From Syntrophomonadaceae bacterium (lineage in GTDB: Bacteria > Bacillota > Syntrophomonadia > Syntrophomonadales > Syntrophothermaceae), in assembly GCA_012719535.1 (NCBI GenBank), contig JAAYAC010000032.1:1-34471 (forward strand): 34,471 bases of DNA, in the 5' to 3' direction. A program made the translations under genes and the position numbers. Of the stretch, positions 1,210-24,302 are shown one piece after another; positions within the stretch are counted from its first letter, which is position 1; each line of letters starts with the position of its first letter. A model generated the notes under the pieces. It was not told the DNA's origin and ran no database searches. It saw only the letters and a list, made by a program, of their open reading frames with translations.

Positions 1210-2382
1210 ATGTCTATACTGAATTTGGGTACATATCCACCCAAACAATGCGGGATAGCCTCGTTCTCCAAAGACTTGCGAGATAACCTGGTTGAGGCAG
1301 GAAGGAAAGTCCATATAGCGGCCATATCCGATACGGAATACTCTTATGCCTACCCCCCCGAGGTGATGTGTGAAATCCATCAGGATAATGTGGAAGACTA
1401 TCTTAATGCAGCGCACCTGGTTAACAGTGCCGGGGATATTGATGTAGTCGTAGTTCAGCACGAGTATGGCATTTTTGGCGGTGCTGACGGCGAGTACGTT
1501 TTGGAATTCCTGTCACATCTGACCAAGCCGTATATGGTAGTGGCGCATACGGTTCTACCTCACCCGTCTCCGGGGCAGAAGAGAGTTTTGCGGGAAGTAA
1601 CCCGCAAGGCGTCTGCAGTTATTTGCATGACCGGGCGTTCGGCCCGGCTGATGGCCAAGGTGTATTCGGTGCAGCCGGAGAAAGTGTACATTATTCATCA
1701 CGGGGTACCGGTTTTCCAGGAAAAAGACAGGGGAGCGCTGAAACGGCAGTACGGATTTGAGGGACGTCAGGTTATAACGACCTTTGGCCTCATTGGCCCG
1801 GGCAAAGGGTTGGAAAATGGAATCAAAGCCCTGGCGCTGATAGTGGATAAACACCCAGATGCCCTGTACCTGATAGCCGGCGGTACCCATCCCATGTTAC
1901 TGAAGCGGGAAGGGGAAAAATACCGGGAGATGTTACTTGAGCTTACCGCTAGGTTGGGGCTCGAGAATCACGTCAAGTTTATTAACCGGTTCTTGGAATT
2001 GGACGAACTGGGGGATTTCCTGTATATGACCGATGTTTACCTGAGCCCTTACCCCAACCGCGATCAGGCAGTTAGCGGAACTCTGTCGTATGCCATAGGT
2101 TGTGGCAGGGCTATTGTCTCGACACCGTACGAATATGCCCTGGAAATGTTGAAGGAGGGGCACCGGGGACTGCTCGCCCCTAATGCGAGACCGGAGGCCA
2201 TCGCCGAACTTCTGGACCGGGTGTTGTCGAACCCTATACTAAAGATGAGACTGGAAAAAGTCGCTCACAGGCTGGGTAGAACCATAAAGTGGCCTTATGT
2301 AGCCAAGCAGTATGCTAACCTGGCGGAGAGGGTGGCCAAAACGAGCTTGTATGGCGTCAAGGGTCAAGAAACCGCTCGTTGA
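1210..2382 (+). CDS. GT4-type glycosyltransferase
   Basis: A 390-aa retaining glycosyltransferase of the GT-B fold, probably cytosolic. The N-terminal domain opens with LGTYPPKQCGIASFSKDL (about residues 6-23), the usual donor/acceptor glycine loop of this group. The C-terminal Rossmann domain holds GLIGPGKGLENGI and YPNRDQAVSGTLSYAIG followed by PYEYALEML, the E-x7-E-like donor-sugar motif. The ATG at 1210 has a good site (AAAGGGGTGATG, 1194-1205). The next gene begins 30 nt after its stop, so the two form an operon. The manC/manB neighbours suggest a GDP-mannose or related donor, but the sequence does not fix donor or acceptor. The GT4 assignment is firm; substrate is unknown. Confidence 0.85.
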   Translation: MSILNLGTYPPKQCGIASFSKDLRDNLVEAGRKVHIAAISDTEYSYAYPPEVMCEIHQDNVEDYLNAAHLVNSAGDIDVVVVQHEYGIFGGADGEYVLEFLSHLTKPYMVVAHTVLPHPSPGQKRVLREVTRKASAVICMTGRSARLMAKVYSVQPEKVYIIHHGVPVFQEKDRGALKRQYGFEGRQVITTFGLIGPGKGLENGIKALALIVDKHPDALYLIAGGTHPMLLKREGEKYREMLLELTARLGLENHVKFINRFLELDELGDFLYMTDVYLSPYPNRDQAVSGTLSYAIGCGRAIVSTPYEYALEMLKEGHRGLLAPNARPEAIAELLDRVLSNPILKMRLEKVAHRLGRTIKWPYVAKQYANLAERVAKTSLYGVKGQETAR

Positions 2383-2411
2383 GCTTCCGGCCAAAAGGGA
2401 GGGAATACTTA

Positions 2412-3470
2412 ATGAATGAAAGGTTGGATTGCCGGCACCTGCGAACTTTGACCGACGACACCGGTATGATCCAGTTTACCACCCTGGATAAACCGGACCC
2501 TGGCAGCGGATATACCACAGACGACAACGCCCGGGCCCTGTTAGTGGCTTTAAGACTTGACGGTGAAGAACGGCAGCGCTATGCCAGGATTTATGTAGAC
2601 TTTCTTCGCCACGCCCAGCGCCCGGATGGTGGCTGGTATAATCTGAAACTGTACCGACAGTATGTTTCCACGTTGGACTCGGAAGACAGCCTGGGCCGGG
2701 CTTTTCTGGCCTGCAGTGTCGCCGCTACTTGCGACGTGGAGGATGTCAGGTGCCTGTCACGACAGATGGCACTGAAAGCCATGCCGGTGGTACTGCGGGT
2801 GAAGAGCCCGCGGTCCATGGCTTATACCCTAATAGGGATGGTTAACATCACCGGCGCTTTTCAACAGAATCGCGATTTGCTGATAGGCGCTATTGCTAAG
2901 TTTGGACAGGCGCTGATAGAGTTCTACAACCGAAACAAGAACTCAAGCTGGCGTTGGTTTGAGGATAAGTTGACGTACTGCAACGGCATACTTCCCCATG
3001 CCCTGTTTGCTTACTACTCTTTTTCCGGTGACAAGAAGGCTCTGCAGGTGGCTCAGGATTCCATGAGATTCCTGGGCGATGCATTGTTCAAGGAAGGATA
3101 CTTGAATATCGTGGGTAACCGGGGATGGTGGTTGAAGGGGCATGAAATGCCCCTCTATGATCAGCAACCAGTTGATGCCTGTTCAACAGCACTGGCCTGT
3201 GCGGAAGGTTACCGCGCCACGGGGCACAAAGACTTCCTCGAAATGACACGGCTGGCCCATAACTGGTACTGGGGAAAGAACATAAACAATATTCCCCTGT
3301 ATAACCCGGAGACGGGCGGGTGTTATGACGCCCTGGTTCCCGGTGGCGTTAACCGGAACCAGGGTGCGGAAGCCATCCTTTCCCTGCTGCTGACCCGGCA
3401 GGCGATGATGGAGCTGGGACTGGACGTCGGTACTTACGAAAAATACCGGGAGGCCCGGGAAGCGGTTTAG
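2412..3470 (+). CDS. Predicted six-hairpin glycosidase-like protein of the mannosyl cluster
   Basis: A 352-aa protein rich in repeated amphipathic helices and aromatic/acidic patches (YTTDDNARALLVAL, RPDGGWYNLKL, DSLGRAFLA, SSWRWFEDKLTYCNGILPHAL, YDQQPVDACSTALAC, NQGAEAILSLL), the look of an (alpha/alpha)6-barrel sugar-active enzyme. No signal peptide, so it should be cytosolic. The frame is open from a TTG at 2379 that overlaps the previous stop, but the ATG at 2412 has the real site AAAAGGGAGGG (2393-2403) and is preferred. I recall relatives encoded beside GH130 and GT4 genes, annotated only as glycosidase- or glycosyltransferase-like. Catalytic residues cannot be assigned by eye. The stop overlaps the convergent fusion gene by 4 nt. 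Confidence 0.6.
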   Translation: MNERLDCRHLRTLTDDTGMIQFTTLDKPDPGSGYTTDDNARALLVALRLDGEERQRYARIYVDFLRHAQRPDGGWYNLKLYRQYVSTLDSEDSLGRAFLACSVAATCDVEDVRCLSRQMALKAMPVVLRVKSPRSMAYTLIGMVNITGAFQQNRDLLIGAIAKFGQALIEFYNRNKNSSWRWFEDKLTYCNGILPHALFAYYSFSGDKKALQVAQDSMRFLGDALFKEGYLNIVGNRGWWLKGHEMPLYDQQPVDACSTALACAEGYRATGHKDFLEMTRLAHNWYWGKNINNIPLYNPETGGCYDALVPGGVNRNQGAEAILSLLLTRQAMMELGLDVGTYEKYREAREAV

Positions 3471-6400
3471 GAACGACCGGTGTCCAGTGTGCGCCTTACC
3501 GCTTCTGGTATCAGGTCGCCTACCGTGGCGGTGGCCAGACAGATATAAGTGTCGGCAGCACCATAATATACGAGTATCTTATCATCGTCGTCAAGTATAT
3601 CTTTGTCTTCAGCCGGGACAGCGCCACAGGTGAATACTACGTTCGGCACCCAGCAGTCGTCGGTTCCAATCTCATGTTCGGTTTCCGGAGAAAGCACCGG
3701 GTTGGGGGAGCGATACAGAAGACGTTCGGGAGCGGAGAAATCAACCAGTATCACCCCGAGACGATAAACCCGGTTCCTATCCACACCGTGATAGACCATC
3801 AGCCAACCGTACCTGGTTTTTAGAGGCTGGGTGCCGGCCCCTATCTTTAAGGAATCCCACATGCGGCCCGCACGAGGACCGAAGATGATGGAGTGGTTCT
3901 CCTTGGGGACGGGGAACTCCAGGCTGTCCATGTATGATACCCATACGCTCGGTTCTATACGGTGGTAGATAACATACTTGTCCCTGATTTTCTCTGGAAA
4001 TAGGATAGCATCCTTATCCCAGATATCTTCAAAAGCGTGGCCTCTTCTCTTCCACCTGTCAAATCGCCGGTTCAGAAAGTCGTCAATTTTTATCGAGGCA
4101 GCCGATATCTGGGCTATACTCCCATCATAGGCGGTGTATAACATATACAGCTCATCATCAACTATTACCACCCGCGGGTCTTCACAGCCTTTCTTTTCCT
4201 TTTCGTTTTCCGGGACGAAAATAGGATCCGGTAGCCTTTCCAGCACGTTGTAGCCATCGGTTATGGCCAGCCCGATACGGGAAATCTCGTCGTCCCCAAA
4301 CGCCCGGTAAAGAAGGTAGACTCGGTCCTTGATCCTGACCGCCCCCGCATTGAGAACATACTTGCTTTCCCAGAAGTGTTCCTTTATGGGAAGCAATATG
4401 GGATTATTCGGGTGTCTCACCAGGGGCTGTGCCGGCGGGTAGTCCGCCGTGTCCTGCGGAACCACGATCACGTCTTTGGGTTTTGCCCCTAGAAGTACAT
4501 CAAGGAGATTCTCACCGGCCTTGCCCTCGCCGATAAACTGGCCGACCATGTGCATGATCTCATTCGGGTCGTATCCGAGGTAGGTGTGGATTTGTTCCAG
4601 CAGATCGTGGTTAAACCATTTCTCTTCCACGTGGCTTGACAAGGGAGTTGGAATGCCCTTGCCGCCCTTGTAGCTATAGCTGGCCCAGGTCCAGGCAGAA
4701 CAGGGGACAAAGGTCCCGTCATCCAGGATCTGGCTGAGTCCATAGCTGTCGGCCATCATGGTCAGCACTCTGGCCTGTTCAACCTGGCCGGTAGCTTCCA
4801 GCTGGCCGGCCAGAGATCTCACCAGGCGTATCAGCCCGCGGTGATGGAAGTTTTCGAAAATATTGTGGGCGCAAAAAGCATCAGTTTCATAACGGCCAAT
4901 AAGCGAGTTGCGAATCTTGCTGCCCAGGTTCTTTCTCTCCCTGGCATAGATCCTCCACAGGTTAGAGTAATCTTCGGCCAGCACTATGTGGCGCAGTATA
5001 TGGAGGCAGAAGTACAGCCTGGGGTACCGTCCTCCCACTCCTTTGCTCAGGGGGCTGATGGTTATACGGGTGGTGATTTTATTTAGATTGGACACTGAGC
5101 CTTGTTTCAGAGAGCCGTCCAGGACCTTGCTGCCCAGAACAATAGGCCGTATATCCAGTTCTTCCATTCCTTCCGGGCTGAGGTTATCCAGTACCCAGAG
5201 GAGCGTGCGGTCCACGTACTTCCTGTTTTCTGCCAGATTGGCCAGGCTGACGGCATCCCTGACATCCATTCTTTCGATAAGCTCTCGGGAATTCCTGCAG
5301 CCTGCCGGAATTATCACGTTGAGAGGCGGAAAACGCAGCAACAATTCTTTCAAAGTGTCAGTTTTAATGGAAAACATCCTGGGCAGGGAAAAGAGACGGA
5401 AAAGTCCTTCGACAACCTGGGTGGCCCCTTCCTCGGTGTATATGTCTCCCGGCAGGAGATATTCCAGGGTCTTTTCAAGGTTATCCATGAATTCTCTTAT
5501 GAACTGTGGTATTTCACGTGCACCGGTATTTCCGGGCGCTTGCAGCCGGTTATAAAGGAAGTCATTGAACGCCTCCTGGTAGTGAGATTGAACCTGGTTA
5601 AAAATCTCTTCCGTCCACACAACTTTCCCGGCTCTTCCCTCAATTCTCTTGGGTAAGACCACCGGAATTCCGGGAATAAACTCCAGATAATGCGCCGGGG
5701 TAAGAGGGGGTTTTACCTCCTGGGCCTTTTCTTGCCATTTCTTGACGAAGGTGTCTTTTTCATGCAGGAAGCTAGTAAGCTGTTCCTTCTTCAGCGCGGT
5801 GGCTGCAGCGGCCATAAGGTTGGTCCTCCCTACTGCGGGCAATCCTTCCAGCCTGTCTTGCGCAGCTTGCATTTGAGTGAAATAGCCGGCCAGTCTCCCG
5901 TTGAACGTGGAGGTAAGGGCATTGAGCAGGTCTTCTCTGCATACCCCCGGATTAAACCAGTAGTGGAACATGAAACCATATACCGACTGAGCCCAGGCCT
6001 CGGAATCCAGCAGGCCGGTCAGTCCGGTCCCGGACGGCTGTTCCCTCGAGGGCGCGGCTGTATTCTTGATCTGCTGGCGCACAGCCTCGGGTATAACCTG
6101 GTCGTACAGAAGGGCATACTGGTTATAGCCGCGCTTGAACATCTGTAGCAGATCATCAAGCGGAAAGTAAACATCGTTAGGAGTGTCTTCATAGCCTTCC
6201 CCGTAGGCGTCCGGGGTCCGTATAATAAGCCTGTCCCCAGGCCAGAAATCCTCATCCCGTTTAATGCACTCGAATATTGACCGGGTGGTTTCCTGAAACA
6301 CGTAGTCGAGCTTGGACAAAGACACGGCAGCAAGCTTGGCGCCCAGTTGTACTTCACATATTTTCTTGTTCCAGCGTATGGCCCGGGTGATAATCCACGG

Positions 6401-7060
6401 GTCGATGCCGTAACCCCGCGTAACGTCCACCCAGAACTTCATCTCGGTACAGTAGTCCTCTACCAGATCGTGAGCCATGGCATAGATGCCGCTCAGGGGA
6501 TCCTTCATCTGGTAACCGTAAAATGCCTCCAGTAGTGGGGCCAGAAAAAGGCTGCCTATCACATCTTCGTTGTGGTGGCGGGTAAAACTTGCCACCGCCA
6601 GATCATACTCATCCCTTATCGGTTCCAGGAGGCGGCTTATCCACCCGGGCTGTAAGCCTCTGGTACCTTCCTGTTTGAGGTCCGCCGCCAGGATAACCAC
6701 GTCGGATTCCAGGTGCTTGGCAATCTCTAATATAGCTCGTATACTTGCTCCCCGGCCCTGGCTGCCGACTTTCATAAGAAACCCCAGGTGGGGAAACTTG
6801 AGCTCCAGGAGGTTGATGGCCTCCAAGACTTCGGTTCCGGCCGGATCACCGACACACAGAATCAATGCCGCCCGCAGGGGGTGCAGTTGTTCCAATCCCT
6901 TTTCAACTATTTTCAGTACCCCGGGCAGGATGTCTTTTTCATTCAAAAAGGGAACACCGATGACCACATCAATATCTTTGAAACATTCAACCTGGCCGAT
7001 CGCAGTCTTTATGCTCTGGTCAAAAAGGGATTCTGCGCTAATTGTCTGCTCAAACCCCAT
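3467..7060 (-). CDS. Fusion protein: GT-A glycosyltransferase + unassigned middle + GH130 mannoside phosphorylase-like domain
   Basis: 1197 aa, about three times the length of either enzyme family. Residues about 28-290 are a GT-A glycosyltransferase (IDVVIGVPFLNEKD start, VILAADLKQEG with D127 at the metal/nucleotide position), most like GT2/GT81. Residues about 300-870 match nothing I recognise; they are soluble and helix-rich. Residues about 880-1197 are a GH130 domain: NAGAVRIKDRVYLLYRAFGDD, GCEDPRV (D961 at the family's catalytic acid position), GAGTQPLKTRYGWLMVYHG, and CWVPNVVF near the end. GH130 enzymes phosphorolyse beta-mannosides to mannose-1-phosphate or hydrolyse them. The ATG at 7060 has GGGGAGGGG about 6 nt upstream. 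It is transcribed away from manC and against the GT4 operon. Substrate is unknown; one protein may both make and recycle a mannoside (inference). Confidence 0.8.
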   Translation of the reverse strand: MGFEQTISAESLFDQSIKTAIGQVECFKDIDVVIGVPFLNEKDILPGVLKIVEKGLEQLHPLRAALILCVGDPAGTEVLEAINLLELKFPHLGFLMKVGSQGRGASIRAILEIAKHLESDVVILAADLKQEGTRGLQPGWISRLLEPIRDEYDLAVASFTRHHNEDVIGSLFLAPLLEAFYGYQMKDPLSGIYAMAHDLVEDYCTEMKFWVDVTRGYGIDPWIITRAIRWNKKICEVQLGAKLAAVSLSKLDYVFQETTRSIFECIKRDEDFWPGDRLIIRTPDAYGEGYEDTPNDVYFPLDDLLQMFKRGYNQYALLYDQVIPEAVRQQIKNTAAPSREQPSGTGLTGLLDSEAWAQSVYGFMFHYWFNPGVCREDLLNALTSTFNGRLAGYFTQMQAAQDRLEGLPAVGRTNLMAAAATALKKEQLTSFLHEKDTFVKKWQEKAQEVKPPLTPAHYLEFIPGIPVVLPKRIEGRAGKVVWTEEIFNQVQSHYQEAFNDFLYNRLQAPGNTGAREIPQFIREFMDNLEKTLEYLLPGDIYTEEGATQVVEGLFRLFSLPRMFSIKTDTLKELLLRFPPLNVIIPAGCRNSRELIERMDVRDAVSLANLAENRKYVDRTLLWVLDNLSPEGMEELDIRPIVLGSKVLDGSLKQGSVSNLNKITTRITISPLSKGVGGRYPRLYFCLHILRHIVLAEDYSNLWRIYARERKNLGSKIRNSLIGRYETDAFCAHNIFENFHHRGLIRLVRSLAGQLEATGQVEQARVLTMMADSYGLSQILDDGTFVPCSAWTWASYSYKGGKGIPTPLSSHVEEKWFNHDLLEQIHTYLGYDPNEIMHMVGQFIGEGKAGENLLDVLLGAKPKDVIVVPQDTADYPPAQPLVRHPNNPILLPIKEHFWESKYVLNAGAVRIKDRVYLLYRAFGDDEISRIGLAITDGYNVLERLPDPIFVPENEKEKKGCEDPRVVIVDDELYMLYTAYDGSIAQISAASIKIDDFLNRRFDRWKRRGHAFEDIWDKDAILFPEKIRDKYVIYHRIEPSVWVSYMDSLEFPVPKENHSIIFGPRAGRMWDSLKIGAGTQPLKTRYGWLMVYHGVDRNRVYRLGVILVDFSAPERLLYRSPNPVLSPETEHEIGTDDCWVPNVVFTCGAVPAEDKDILDDDDKILVYYGAADTYICLATATVGDLIPEAVRRTLDTGRS

Positions 7061-7120
7061 TTTTTCCCCTCCCCGGAATGAATACTAGGTTGGGGCGTAC
7101 AGCGGTACACCCTACGTTAC

Positions 7121-7126
7121 ATTATA
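7121..7126 (-). promoter_or_regulatory. -10 box for the GT-GH130 fusion gene
   Basis: On the minus strand TATAAT occurs about 60 nt upstream of the fusion start. The nearest -35-like hexamer is TTGCCC with a long 19-nt spacer, so only the -10 is convincing. Confidence 0.45.
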
Positions 7127-7214
7127 TGATAGTTTTAGGCCCAAAGGGCAAGGGAAAAAAGCCCCTGTGCAAGTTTTCACAACAATATTCAACAAAAATC
7201 CCCAGGCAAAAAAC

Positions 7215-7245
7215 TTGACGGGTATTTGGTAAAATATGATATAGT
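7215..7245 (+). promoter_or_regulatory. Promoter of manC-manB
   Basis: TTGACG (7215-7220) is followed by TATGATATAGT; GATATA (7238-7243, 17-nt spacer) or TATAGT (7240-7245, 19-nt spacer) can serve as -10. The site lies inside the longest open frame of manC, which supports the downstream TTG start of that gene. Confidence 0.6.
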
Positions 7246-7300
7246 GGGGAAAACCTCTAACTCCTTGGATGTTTTAGGAGCCAGTAAGGAGGGATGTGTT

Positions 7301-8347
7301 TTGATTTCAGTGATCCTGGCAGGAGGTAAAGGTGTGCGCCTGTGGCCGGAAAGCAGGGAGGCGAGGCCCAAGCAGCTCTGCCACTTCTTTGGCAACAAGT
7401 CCATGCTCGAGCATACCGTGGACCGGCTGGCGGCAGCGGGAAGTGAGGAAATTCTCATTATCACCAACCAGAGCCAGGTAGAACCAGTAGCCCGCGTACT
7501 GAGCGAAAACAAGTACCGGGATAAGATAGAAATAGTAGGAGAACCACTGGGAAGGAATACGGCTCCCGCTATTGGCCTGGCTCTGGCCAGGTACCTGCCG
7601 GGCAGGGGTGACGATGTGTTGGCCATATTTCCTTCGGACCACTACATAAGGGATACCCAGGCGTTTCGGGAAGTGATCCAAAAAGCGGTGCAGGTAGCCG
7701 GGGAAGGTTACCTGGTTACCGTGGGTATAACCCCAACCTATCCGGAGACCGGGTACGGGTATATCAAGAAAAGCGCCCGGGCCATTGGGACGGTTGAGGG
7801 TGCTTTCGAGGTGGAAGCTTTTAAGGAGAAGCCGGATCTGCAGTCCGCGGTGCGATATGTAGAAAGTGGGGAATATTTCTGGAATGCCGGTATATTTATC
7901 GGGAAAGTAAGTACGGTGGCCGAGGAATATGCCCGTTACCTTCCGGAGGTCTACCGGCTTATCGAGCAGGGCTATGAAATCTACCTGGCCAACTATGAAA
8001 ACTTGCCCAATATCAGTATGGACTATGGGATTATGGAAAAGAGCGACCGGGTGGGAGTGGTCTCCGGAGACTTGGGGTGGAGCGATGTGGGAAGTTGGAA
8101 GGCGCTGGCGGAGTTGCTGGAACCGGACCAGCACAACAACGTACTGGTCGGCGACGATATCCTAGCTGTAGACGTCAGGAATTGCCTGGTCAAACAAAGC
8201 GAAAAGACCCTGGCCCTGCTGGGAGTCAAGGACCTGGTAATAGTTGAAACCAGGGATGTAATCATGATCTGCCCCAAGGAAGAGTCGCAGAATGTCCGGA
8301 AAATAGTCGACTTGCTGGTCGAACAAGGGCGCGATGTTCTGTTGTAA
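7301..8347 (+). CDS. manC: Mannose-1-phosphate guanylyltransferase
   Basis: Makes GDP-mannose from mannose-1-phosphate and GTP in the cytosol. Sequence: the nucleotidyltransferase signature LAGGKGVRLWP...RPKQL (residues 6-26), RNTAPAIGLA (85-94), FPSDH (110-114), GYGYIK, EKPDL, WNAGIF, DYGIMEKS and GWSDVGSWKAL. At 348 aa it is the one-domain form, without the isomerase domain of the long bifunctional type. The frame is open from 7226, but that start lies within the promoter; TTG 7301 sits 7 nt after AAGGAGGG (7286-7293) and puts the signature at the expected N terminus. Its stop overlaps the manB ribosome binding site, so the two genes are one unit. The product would feed the cluster's glycosyltransferases. 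Confidence 0.92.
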   Translation: MISVILAGGKGVRLWPESREARPKQLCHFFGNKSMLEHTVDRLAAAGSEEILIITNQSQVEPVARVLSENKYRDKIEIVGEPLGRNTAPAIGLALARYLPGRGDDVLAIFPSDHYIRDTQAFREVIQKAVQVAGEGYLVTVGITPTYPETGYGYIKKSARAIGTVEGAFEVEAFKEKPDLQSAVRYVESGEYFWNAGIFIGKVSTVAEEYARYLPEVYRLIEQGYEIYLANYENLPNISMDYGIMEKSDRVGVVSGDLGWSDVGSWKALAELLEPDQHNNVLVGDDILAVDVRNCLVKQSEKTLALLGVKDLVIVETRDVIMICPKEESQNVRKIVDLLVEQGRDVLL

Positions 8348-8360
8348 AGGAGGAAAGGCC

Positions 8361-9725
8361 ATGATTTCTAGCCATATCTTCAGACAGTATGATATCCGGG
8401 GAGTGGTCGATCGGGAGTTGACCGACGCAACAGTGGGCAAAATAGCTCGAGCCTTCGCGACTTATGCTGTCCGGGCCGGGTATCGCAAGGTTCTCGTGGG
8501 AAGAGACAACCGGAAATCCTCCCCGCATTACCGGGACCTGGTGGTGGAGGCCTTGCGCGGCTCGGGGTGTGATGTGGTGGACCTGGGAGTAGTGGTGACG
8601 CCCATGTTCTACTTTGCCGCCCGTCACCTGGGAGTAAACGCCGGCTTGATGATCACGGCGAGCCATAATCCGGGTGACCATAACGGGTTCAAAGTCCTGG
8701 TGGGAGAATCGACTATATACGGAGAGCAGATCCAGGAGCTCCGACGGCTTGCCGAGAAGAATGAGTTTGTACAGGGACCGCGGGGGACTCTGGGAAAAAT
8801 AGACATTGCCAGGGATTACATGGAAATGATCAAATCTAAGGTGGTGCTGGGGCCCAGGCGGCTCAAAGTTGTTGTGGACTGTGGAAACGGGACTGCTTCC
8901 TTTTTTGCGCCGGGCCTGTTCAGGGAACTGGGCTGCGAAGTGGTCGAGCTATATTGTGAATCTGATCCGGATTTTCCCAACCATCACCCCGATCCGGTTA
9001 AGGCGGAGAATTGCCTGGATCTGATTCGTGTGGTCCAGAAGGAAGATGCCGACCTCGGGATCGGGTTCGATGGAGATGGCGACCGGTTGGGTGTGGTAGA
9101 TAAGGAAGGAAACATTATCTGGGGCGACATGCTAATGATTCTTTTCTGGAGGGAAATTCTGCCCAAGTATCCGGGTTGTGATTGTATTGTCGAGGTCAAG
9201 TGTTCACAGGGTCTCATCGATGAAATCAGAAGACTGGGAGGCAATCCCATCATCTTTAAGACAGGCCACTCCTTGATTAAAGCTAAGATGAAGGAGATAG
9301 GTGCGGTGTTCACCGGGGAGATGTCCGGGCACCTCTTCTTTGCCGACGAGTACTACGGGTACGATGATGCCCTGTATGCTGCCGCCAGGCTCCTGCGTAT
9401 ACTGTCCAACAGTGACCAAACCATTACTGCGATGCTATCCAGCGTTCCCCGGTATTACGCCACACCCGAGCTAAGGGTAAAAAGCAGTGATGAGGAGAAG
9501 TTCGCGGTGGTCAACAAAGTGCTGGAGCATTTCCGCGCGTCATACGATGTTATTGATGTTGACGGCGCCAGGATACTGTTCGAGAACGGGTGGGGGCTGG
9601 TGCGGGCCTCCAACACCGGACCGGAACTGATTGTGAGATGCGAGGGCAAGACCCCCGAAGCATTGGAGGATATTAAAAAGGAGTTGTTCGGCTACCTTCG
9701 GGGGCTGGGGCTGGAAATTGAGTAA
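8361..9725 (+). CDS. manB: Phosphomannomutase / phosphoglucomutase
   Basis: A 454-aa alpha-D-phosphohexomutase converting mannose-6-phosphate to mannose-1-phosphate (or the glucose equivalents). All four family motifs are present: the catalytic phosphoserine loop TASHNPGDHNGFK (Ser101), the metal loop GFDGDGDRLG, the sugar-binding GEMSGHLFF, and the phosphate-binding RASNTGPELIVRCEGKT near the C terminus. ATG 8361 follows AAAGGAGG (8346-8353), which overlaps the manC stop. Pairing with manC favours a mannose role, although many such enzymes accept both sugars. No separate terminator is visible; a new promoter begins within a few nt of the stop. Confidence 0.9.
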   Translation: MISSHIFRQYDIRGVVDRELTDATVGKIARAFATYAVRAGYRKVLVGRDNRKSSPHYRDLVVEALRGSGCDVVDLGVVVTPMFYFAARHLGVNAGLMITASHNPGDHNGFKVLVGESTIYGEQIQELRRLAEKNEFVQGPRGTLGKIDIARDYMEMIKSKVVLGPRRLKVVVDCGNGTASFFAPGLFRELGCEVVELYCESDPDFPNHHPDPVKAENCLDLIRVVQKEDADLGIGFDGDGDRLGVVDKEGNIIWGDMLMILFWREILPKYPGCDCIVEVKCSQGLIDEIRRLGGNPIIFKTGHSLIKAKMKEIGAVFTGEMSGHLFFADEYYGYDDALYAAARLLRILSNSDQTITAMLSSVPRYYATPELRVKSSDEEKFAVVNKVLEHFRASYDVIDVDGARILFENGWGLVRASNTGPELIVRCEGKTPEALEDIKKELFGYLRGLGLEIE

Positions 9726-17229: not shown

Positions 17230-17507
17230 TAGCAGCAAAGGTGATGATGAAGGAAAGTAGCTCCGTGGAATCCTACAGGGAGGAGGCGTCGTGACTGGAA
17301 GCGCCTCCAGGAGGAAGCAGAGTGAAGTTCCCTTCTGAACTCCCGGCTGAAACCAGTTCAGGCAAGTAGGTCGAGGCGGAGACTTCCACCGTTAAAAGGA
17401 AGGGGATATCGGATGACAGATCCCGTATCCTGAACGAGCGGACCTTAGTCAAGTTGGGTGGTACCGCGGAAAGCCAGCTTTCCGTCCCAAGGGAGGGAAA
17501 GCTTTTT
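17230..17507 (+). promoter_or_regulatory. T-box riboswitch, tRNA-Phe specific by its specifier
   Basis: A leader that reads uncharged tRNA and lets transcription continue when it is scarce. Visible parts: AGTA (17256-17259) near the 5' side of stem I; an apical hairpin GAGGCG/CGCCTC; the specifier region GTGAA-6nt-TTC-T-GAACTC with TTC (Phe) at 17333-17335; stem III GGATA...TATCC (17404-17430); and the T-box TTGGGTGGTACCGCGG (17454-17469). The terminator follows. The Phe codon fits the downstream genes aroF and pheA. The base after the specifier is T, where a purine is more usual, so the codon call rests on spacing by analogy with B. subtilis tyrS plus gene context. Confidence 0.9.
17477..17507 (+). 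terminator. First T-box terminator
   Basis: GCTTTCC (17477-17483) pairs with GGAAAGC (17496-17502), a G-G mismatch follows, then TCCC pairs with GGGA around an AA loop. TTTTT at 17503-17507. Confidence 0.85.
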
Positions 17508-17790: not shown

Positions 17791-18555
17791 GTGGGAGGTC
17801 GTGTTTTCGGCAGTGAAGAGGTGGTAATCATAGCCGGGCCGTGCGCCGTCGAGAGTGAGGAGATGTTGTGGGAAATTGCCGTCAGGATAAAAGAAGCAGG
17901 GGCGGCACTGCTGAGAGGTGGGGCGTATAAGCCCAGGACTTCCCCCTATAGCTTTCAGGGGCTTGGCGAACAAGGCCTGAAGGTACTGGCCCGGGTGGGT
18001 AAGGCACTGGATATGCCCGTAGTCACCGAAGTGGTGGACACCGGGGATGTTGAGACGGTGGCGGCTTATGCCGACGTTCTGCAGGTAGGCGCCAGGAACA
18101 TGCAGAATTATTCACTGCTCAAAAAGTTGGGGACCATCGACAAGCCGGTGATACTTAAAAGGGGTATATCGGCCACTGTTGAAGAATGGCTGATGGCGGC
18201 CGAGTATATCTTACTGGCCGGCAACGAGCAGGTAGTTTTGTGTGAGCGGGGGATTCGCACTTATGAGCCCTGGACCCGCAATACGCTGGATCTGTCAGCA
18301 GTTGCCCTGGTTAAACACCTGTCCCACCTGCCGGTGATAGCGGACCCGAGTCATGCCACCGGTCTTGCCCACCTGGTCGGGCCGATGGCCAGGGCGGCGG
18401 TGGCAGCTGGCGTTGACGGGCTCATGGTGGAGGTGCACATAGCCCCAGAGCGGGCTTTGTCGGATGGGGCACAGTCCTTGACTCCGGACCAGTTCGGCCA
18501 TCTGGTCCGTGAAGTCGACCTTCTGGCCGGCCTGATGGGAAGGAGGGTCCGGTAA
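17791..18555 (+). CDS. aroF: 3-deoxy-7-phosphoheptulonate (DAHP) synthase, short type I-beta
   Basis: First enzyme of aromatic amino-acid synthesis: phosphoenolpyruvate + erythrose-4-phosphate to DAHP. Motifs: [10 protein letters not shown] (residues 13-22), [56 protein letters not shown] and DPSHATG. At 254 aa it lacks the N-terminal regulatory ferredoxin-like domain of the Thermotoga form, as in the short archaeal enzymes. The start is uncertain. GTG 17791 has only a weak GAGAG site and cuts into the first beta strand; codons upstream (KTRVSV) still look homologous, but TAA at 17758 blocks the frame, beyond which an ATG at 17713 with GGGGGGAAAGGA lies in the same frame. Controlled by the Phe T-box; pheA follows by 1 nt. 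Confidence 0.85.
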
Positions 18556-24087: not shown

Positions 24088-24302
24088 GACACAGGAACCA
24101 TGTGTACAGAGGTCTGAAGTCCCTGCTGTGTTCGTGATAAGCCAGTTGATTTTGGCCCAACACCAAAATTAAGGGAGCCTGGACTCTGGGTGTAGCTTGC
24201 ATGCCCAAATAGTTGGGAAGCGAAAAACACTCAGGAGGGCACCCACCTGCTGGGGAAGCAGGTTCAAAATAACTGGCTCCACACGACTCGGTGGGGCTTT
24301 TT
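24088..24302 (+). ncRNA. ssrS: Structured RNA, candidate 6S RNA
   Basis: A promoter-RNA-terminator cassette of about 215 nt with no plausible ORF, between aspS and tcdA. I recall that B. subtilis 6S-1 RNA (bsrA) lies at exactly this place, between aspS and yrvM. Visible helices: GAACC (24095-24099) with GGTTC (24261-24265) bringing the ends together; ATTTTGG/CCAAAAT (24149-24155, 24163-24169); CTGGGTGT/ACACTCAG (24186-24193, 24227-24234) enclosing CCCAA/TTGGG; and ACCTGCT/AGCAGGT (24245-24251, 24257-24263). The last competes with the end-to-end pairing. I could not trace the single long rod with central bubble that defines 6S, so the name rests mainly on synteny and size. Confidence 0.55.
24276..24302 (+). 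terminator. Terminator of the 6S-like RNA
   Basis: GCTCCAC (24276-24282) pairs with GTGGGGC (24291-24297), with one T-G pair. TTTTT at 24298-24302. Confidence 0.75.

Follow-up and report, generated by a model that had tools for sequence, protein, structure and literature searches.

The five genes at positions 1210 to 9725 of a 34,471-nucleotide stretch from a Syntrophomonadaceae bacterium (contig JAAYAC010000032.1 of assembly GCA_012719535.1; the whole stretch is referred to as the window) probably act within the cell to synthesize and recycle a mannose compound. They encode a GT4 glycosyltransferase, a six-hairpin protein, a three-part fusion of a glycosyltransferase-like (GT) domain, a helical middle region and a GH130 domain, and the mannose enzymes ManC and ManB. 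With about even confidence, we read the cluster as a cytoplasmic cycle that turns over a beta-1,2-linked mannoside or a short mannan and feeds mannose-1-phosphate (Man-1-P) from phosphorolysis back to ManC. A preliminary description, made from the sequence alone, had proposed a set that builds a mannoside and takes it back, and this interpretation is partly supported: the phosphorylase step is a well-supported prediction from invariant residues, but synthesis by the fusion is uncertain, and the synthesis step and the product are what we infer. What this analysis adds is the fused enzyme, with its distribution and its partner genes; the set is an unannotated variant of one described before in Thermoanaerobacter.

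A predicted phosphorylase domain in a three-part protein

The fusion gene (3467..7060, minus strand) encodes 1,197 residues, and in an AlphaFold model built with 67 relatives (pLDDT 87.7, pTM 0.77) these form an α/β GT-A domain, an extended helical part and a β-propeller. Matches in Pfam and NCBIfam are limited to GH130, over residues 896-1183 (PF04041, 174.9 bits, above cut-off); with the threshold relaxed to E<=5, residues 1-870 still match nothing in Pfam. The propeller is five-bladed, spans residues about 880-1190 (3491..4423, minus strand), and has as its closest solved relatives by sequence 7fip (6e-56) and 9fj8 (2e-51); Foldseek likewise puts it on Teth514_1788 (9fj8, 2.6e-24) and Teth514_1789 (7fip, 4e-22). 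Eleven GH130 positions were compared across 74 fusions, and none of them varies. Among the invariant residues, Asn904, Asp961 and Asp1170 align with the -1 subsite residues Asn28, Asp98 and Asp287 of Teth514_1789 (PMC4264767), Asp961 (4178..4180, minus strand) being the predicted catalytic residue; Arg1034, Lys1072 and His1091 align with Arg, Lys and His of the same enzyme, with a presumptive exact assignment to the phosphate site; and Lys1016 (4013..4015, minus strand), aligned through Teth514_1789, corresponds to Lys199 of BT3780, the lysine marking β-1,2 specificity (PMC4599007). The assignment of the domain to the beta-1,2-mannobiose/oligomannan phosphorylase type is thus a well-supported prediction from sequence. 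The alternative of a hydrolase was rejected, since the basic phosphate-site residues are present and not the Glu pair of hydrolases. Moreover, while the preliminary description was right to have a GH130 phosphorylase yield Man-1-P for ManC, the TM1225 or BfMGP type that it named was rejected, the nearest relatives by both sequence and Foldseek being Teth514_1789 and Teth514_1788. The curated NCBIfam name for a GH130 phosphorylase is not reached (equivalog score 244, with 450 required). A second GT4-GH130 pair is found in the same genome (locus L033, G000:C101:12460-14451), where it adjoins proA/proB, and pairs of this type stand inside the fusion cluster in Pelotomaculum-type genomes. At the position of Lys1016 the C101 GH130 departs from the fusion, with what seems to be Arg, and its linkage may therefore also be different.

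The N-terminal part, a GT-A domain plus a helical part at residues about 28-440 (5741..6979, minus strand), resembles mannosylglycerate synthase of family GT78 (2bo4/2bo7/2y4k-m family) in Foldseek, with E 2e-12 and TM(target) 0.73-0.77. Solo relatives of residues 16-442, themselves 413-437 residues long, match GpgS (4e-8) and MGS_GT (5e-6) in Pfam, just under cut-off, and they place the end of the GT part at about residue 440. The direct sequence link from the fusion to solved glycosyltransferases is weak (best profile search value, 0.028), and the fold assignment was obtained via the solo relatives and the fold search. Motif order is also common to this part and to GT78 mannosylglycerate synthase and GT81 GpgS, from which the fusion differs by its two further modules and by its metal site: at the DXD position, which is DSD in the solo relatives, the fusions carry xAD or SANM-type sequences, and in the window the aligned position reads Ala125-Ala126-Asp127 (6680..6688, minus strand). 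The fusion is not filed here as a GT78 member, since it has the fold but neither the DXD motif nor the metal-binding His. The remaining middle region, residues 441-870 (4451..5740, minus strand), is mostly helical in the AlphaFold model, and no relative or family was found for it (Pfam at E<=5). No description of the three-part fusion was found in the open-access literature. Solo GT78/GT81-like proteins that retain an intact DSD, possibly active solute synthases, are encoded beside LacI-type regulators in 3 other loci (L145, L147 and L148).

Partner genes and their conservation

All five open reading frames (ORFs) are present where the preliminary description had placed them, and its enzyme classes hold, with GT4, GH130, ManC and ManB confirmed by Pfam and NCBIfam; the six-hairpin protein and the GT part of the fusion have no Pfam match above cut-off, and both folds are confirmed by predicted structures. 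The genes do lie together, but the fusion gene is on the opposite strand, convergent with the GT4 and six-hairpin genes (4-bp tail-to-tail overlap) and divergent from manC, so the set comprises at least three transcription units and not one operon. The GT4 protein (1210..2382, plus strand; 390 residues; PF00534 1.8e-18, PF13439) has MshA and the GDP-Man-dependent PimB' as its nearest solved relatives. The six-hairpin gene follows (2379..3470, plus strand; 352-363 residues), with its likely start at ATG 2412, as homologues begin near codon 12. The protein is modelled as an (alpha/alpha)6 barrel of glycosidase- or epimerase-like fold (pLDDT 89.8, pTM 0.91), for which Foldseek gives YPO2471 (7tem, 5e-10) and then AGE, mannose isomerase, cellobiose epimerase and GH76; identity to YPO2471 and AGE/cellobiose epimerase is 10-16%, and no activity is transferable.

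On the other side of the fusion, manC (7226..8347, plus strand; TIGR01479, 319 bits over the GMP part; PF22640, ManC beta-helix) encodes a mannose-1-phosphate guanylyltransferase with a beta-helix and likely starts at TTG 7301, downstream of AAGGAGGG. It overlaps manB (8334..9725, plus strand; PF02878-PF02880, PF00408; NF046027, 483 bits), which encodes a four-domain phosphomannomutase/phosphoglucomutase. A type I PMI is absent from the genome, which has a bifunctional PGI/PMI above cut-off; with PGI/PMI, ManB and ManC all present, the de novo route to GDP-mannose is complete as judged by homology.

The claim that the enzymes lack signal peptides and membrane helices, and are thus cytoplasmic, was borne out: no hydrophobic segment of either type is seen in the five proteins, whose 19-residue maxima are 1.0-1.6 vs 2.2-2.4 in the flanking membrane proteins. 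The sole adjoining transporter is a CDF cation exporter, and there is no sugar transporter at the locus. An Rfam scan placed no RNA inside the five-gene cluster. Elsewhere in the window it gave a T-box leader at 17235-17492 (RF00230, 97 bits), which precedes the gene at 17791, and a 6S RNA at 24117-24301 (RF00013, 102 bits) that overlaps a predicted ORF at its start (24197).

Conservation was assessed at the level of the order (41 genomes), in a phylum-wide sample of 399 genomes, and in 80 fusion loci with variable flank lengths, and the co-occurrence anticipated for related genomes was found. The fusion is matched in 40 of the 41 order genomes; in G017 there is only a short GH130 stretch, and this genome and G004, the order members without the fusion N-part, are also without the six-hairpin gene. 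Strong matches to the N-part occur in 55 of the 399 phylum genomes, and named carriers include Syntrophomonas, Pelotomaculum, Tepidanaerobacter, Thermosediminibacter, Fervidicola and Syntrophaceticus. The six-hairpin gene is present in 50 of these 55 but in only 51 of the 344 fusion-less genomes, an association far above chance (Fisher p 2e-29, without correction for kinship), and the two genes share a contig within 14 kb in 39 of the 50, and within 70 bp in 12. Of the 80 loci, 52 have GT4 near the fusion, 42 the six-hairpin gene, 38 ManB and 35 ManC, with GT4 and six-hairpin neighbours recurring in many families; where close loci were read, GT4, six-hairpin and fusion run in one direction. 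The label "island" given in the preliminary description does not fit a set that is order-wide and ancestral, and a mobile or accessory island was rejected on the same order-wide presence of the fusion. Another reading is that the product is a glycan of the cell surface or S-layer, with editing as the role of GH130. GT4 and ManB/ManC are frequent in surface glycan loci, and these families are confirmed at this locus. However, the conserved partners include no flippase, polymerase, ligase or membrane protein, and phosphorylases of this kind are cytoplasmic (PMC4599007); we consider a surface glycan very unlikely.

The GT4 and six-hairpin proteins are bound together beyond the fusion genomes. They form a single protein in L151, L153, L154 and L185-L189, in the first three as a protein of 762-813 residues near a GT-GH130 fusion. 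Of 20 loci from genomes without the fusion, 10 have a stand-alone GH130 close to GT4-six-hairpin, whether separate or fused, and a nucleotidyltransferase is often there too. ManC and ManB types are likewise fused in L186, L187 and L189, and in L174 (5896-8316) a GH94 phosphorylase occupies the GH130 position beside GT4, six-hairpin and ManB, which suggests that the module works with different beta-glycoside phosphorylases. The GT4-six-hairpin link was not found described in the open-access literature. A storage-glycan setting is seen in L186 and L187, both of which also carry 4-alpha-glucanotransferase; L186 has alpha-amylase and GH57-type genes as well.

A proposed cytoplasmic mannoside cycle and its alternatives

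As we picture the cycle, PGI/PMI, ManB and ManC, identified by homology, would convert fructose-6-phosphate to GDP-mannose, from which GT4, possibly together with the GT78-like domain, would form an alpha-mannosyl primer or solute. Since the six-hairpin protein is fused to GT4 in other bacteria, it would act on the same product, trimming or modifying it. With phosphate, the GH130 domain of the fusion is predicted from its invariant residues to remove beta-1,2-linked mannose as alpha-mannose-1-phosphate, presumably in this direction, and the Man-1-P could return to GDP-mannose through ManC or pass to mannose-6-phosphate through ManB for energy. By reverse phosphorolysis, the same domain may extend chains as well. 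Families GT4 and GT78 are retaining, and alpha links are expected of them; the most likely source of the β-1,2 bonds is therefore reverse action of GH130 or an enzyme not encoded in the set.

Several points weigh against this cycle. Beyond GH130 in reverse, no enzyme of the set accounts for the beta-1,2 bond, and the product proposed for these bacteria has never been observed. A mannan reserve is not needed in a genome that has a true glycogen synthase, GlgA (6.9e-87), and simple replacement of glycogen is not supported in this genome, although in the sample a strong GlgA match is missing from most of family f3. Some relatives carry a GH5/42-like hydrolase beside the set, and Thermoanaerobacter an ABC importer, which favours salvage there. 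Finally, of the fusions displayed only one retains the metal-binding His, which the window fusion lacks, and 24 of 73 fusions have no Asp at the DXD site, 22 of the 24 belonging to one clade, a Syntrophomonas-type paralogue often beside pepF.

The last of these points raises the possibility that the fusion is solely a phosphorylase, its GT78-like part a dead scaffold or a regulatory or glycan-binding module, with GT4 the sole transferase. The first Asp of the DXD motif and the metal His are gone in nearly all fusions, and the second Asp is lost in the 22-member paralogue clade and two deep members, while the GH130 residues never vary. On the other hand, the clade of the window retains Asp127, further GT positions, for example Asp220, are conserved in 64 of 74 fusions, the GT domain is kept whole in all lineages, and some GT-A enzymes function without a canonical DXD. 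A phosphorylase-only fusion is, in our estimate, rather improbable; nevertheless, with GH130 invariant and the GT metal site degenerate, the phosphorylase is constant and the transferase doubtful. In the Syntrophomonas-type loci (L096-L129), the paralogue without the metal site often directly follows pepF (oligoendopeptidase F), and PAS sensor kinases often lie between it and the six-hairpin gene. The linkage to pepF is consistent, and we make no functional sense of it.

A different direction of flow would have imported or surface-derived beta-1,2-mannosides degraded and their Man-1-P turned into GDP-mannose, with no stored product. This is what was proposed in 2014 for the homologous cluster of Thermoanaerobacter sp. 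X-514 (Teth514_1785-1796), which has an ABC importer and GH5, and the ATP-sparing reuse of Man-1-P suggested in the preliminary description was already part of that proposal, there as salvage of imported mannan (PMC4264767). Gene order in one locus, L179 (GH5, GH130, GH130, nucleotidyltransferase, GT4, six-hairpin), is that of the Thermoanaerobacter cluster, with the first GH130 near-identical to Teth514_1789, and a GH5/42-like protein occurs in several fusion loci (e.g., L058, L067, L078). At the window locus, however, there is neither an importer nor a secreted hydrolase, sugar-binding proteins elsewhere in the genome are few and weak SBP_bac_1 matches, and GT4, ManC and ManB are biosynthetic. 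Moreover, mannan is not a usual growth substrate of syntrophs. Salvage as the sole function is, on balance, unlikely here.

Relation to known systems and significance

The preferred reading, a cytoplasmic cycle, concerns a gene set with a published counterpart. In Thermoanaerobacter sp. X-514, as in the window, ManC and GT4 stand beside GH130 beta-1,2-mannan phosphorylases (Teth514_1788/1789), but there GH130 is free-standing and doubled and not fused, no GT78-like domain is present, phosphomannomutase is elsewhere in the genome, and the ABC importer and GH5 belong to the cluster, whereas the window has no linked ABC importer. Both the window and loci such as L179 combine GH130, a sugar-1-phosphate nucleotidyltransferase, GT4 and six-hairpin. 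Since the order in L179 is that published for Teth514_1790-1785, the hypothetical protein Teth514_1785 is, from its position, very likely a six-hairpin protein, and a testable role is thereby pointed to. Cyclic beta-1,2-glucan synthase (GT84-GH94) follows the general plan of the fusion, with a GT and an inverting phosphorylase in one long protein, but it is a membrane protein that handles glucose through unrelated domains, and the likeness is one of plan only. In Leishmania, GT108 enzymes turn over β-1,2-mannan (PMC8950772). These mannogen enzymes (GT108 MTPs) share with the present system the beta-1,2-mannan, the five-bladed propeller, and linked mannosyltransfer and phosphorolysis; however, both activities reside in one propeller of a separate family, as opposed to a distinct GT-A module fused to GH130.

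A bolder extension, to which we attach only low confidence, is that many anaerobic Firmicutes hold an intracellular beta-1,2-mannan reserve ("mannogen") served by one three-part protein, in which the GT78-derived part would start chains, GH130 would extend, trim and phosphorolyse them, and the middle would hold or measure the chain. In any case, 870 residues without a known family precede a mannan phosphorylase across many syntrophic and thermophilic anaerobes, accompanied by a transferase and a barrel protein that elsewhere form one polypeptide. Should the product prove to be a β-1,2-mannan or mannoside of the cytoplasm, these bacteria would have a mannose-based reserve or solute like that of trypanosomatids, and the GT-phosphorylase chimera would be useful for β-mannoside synthesis.

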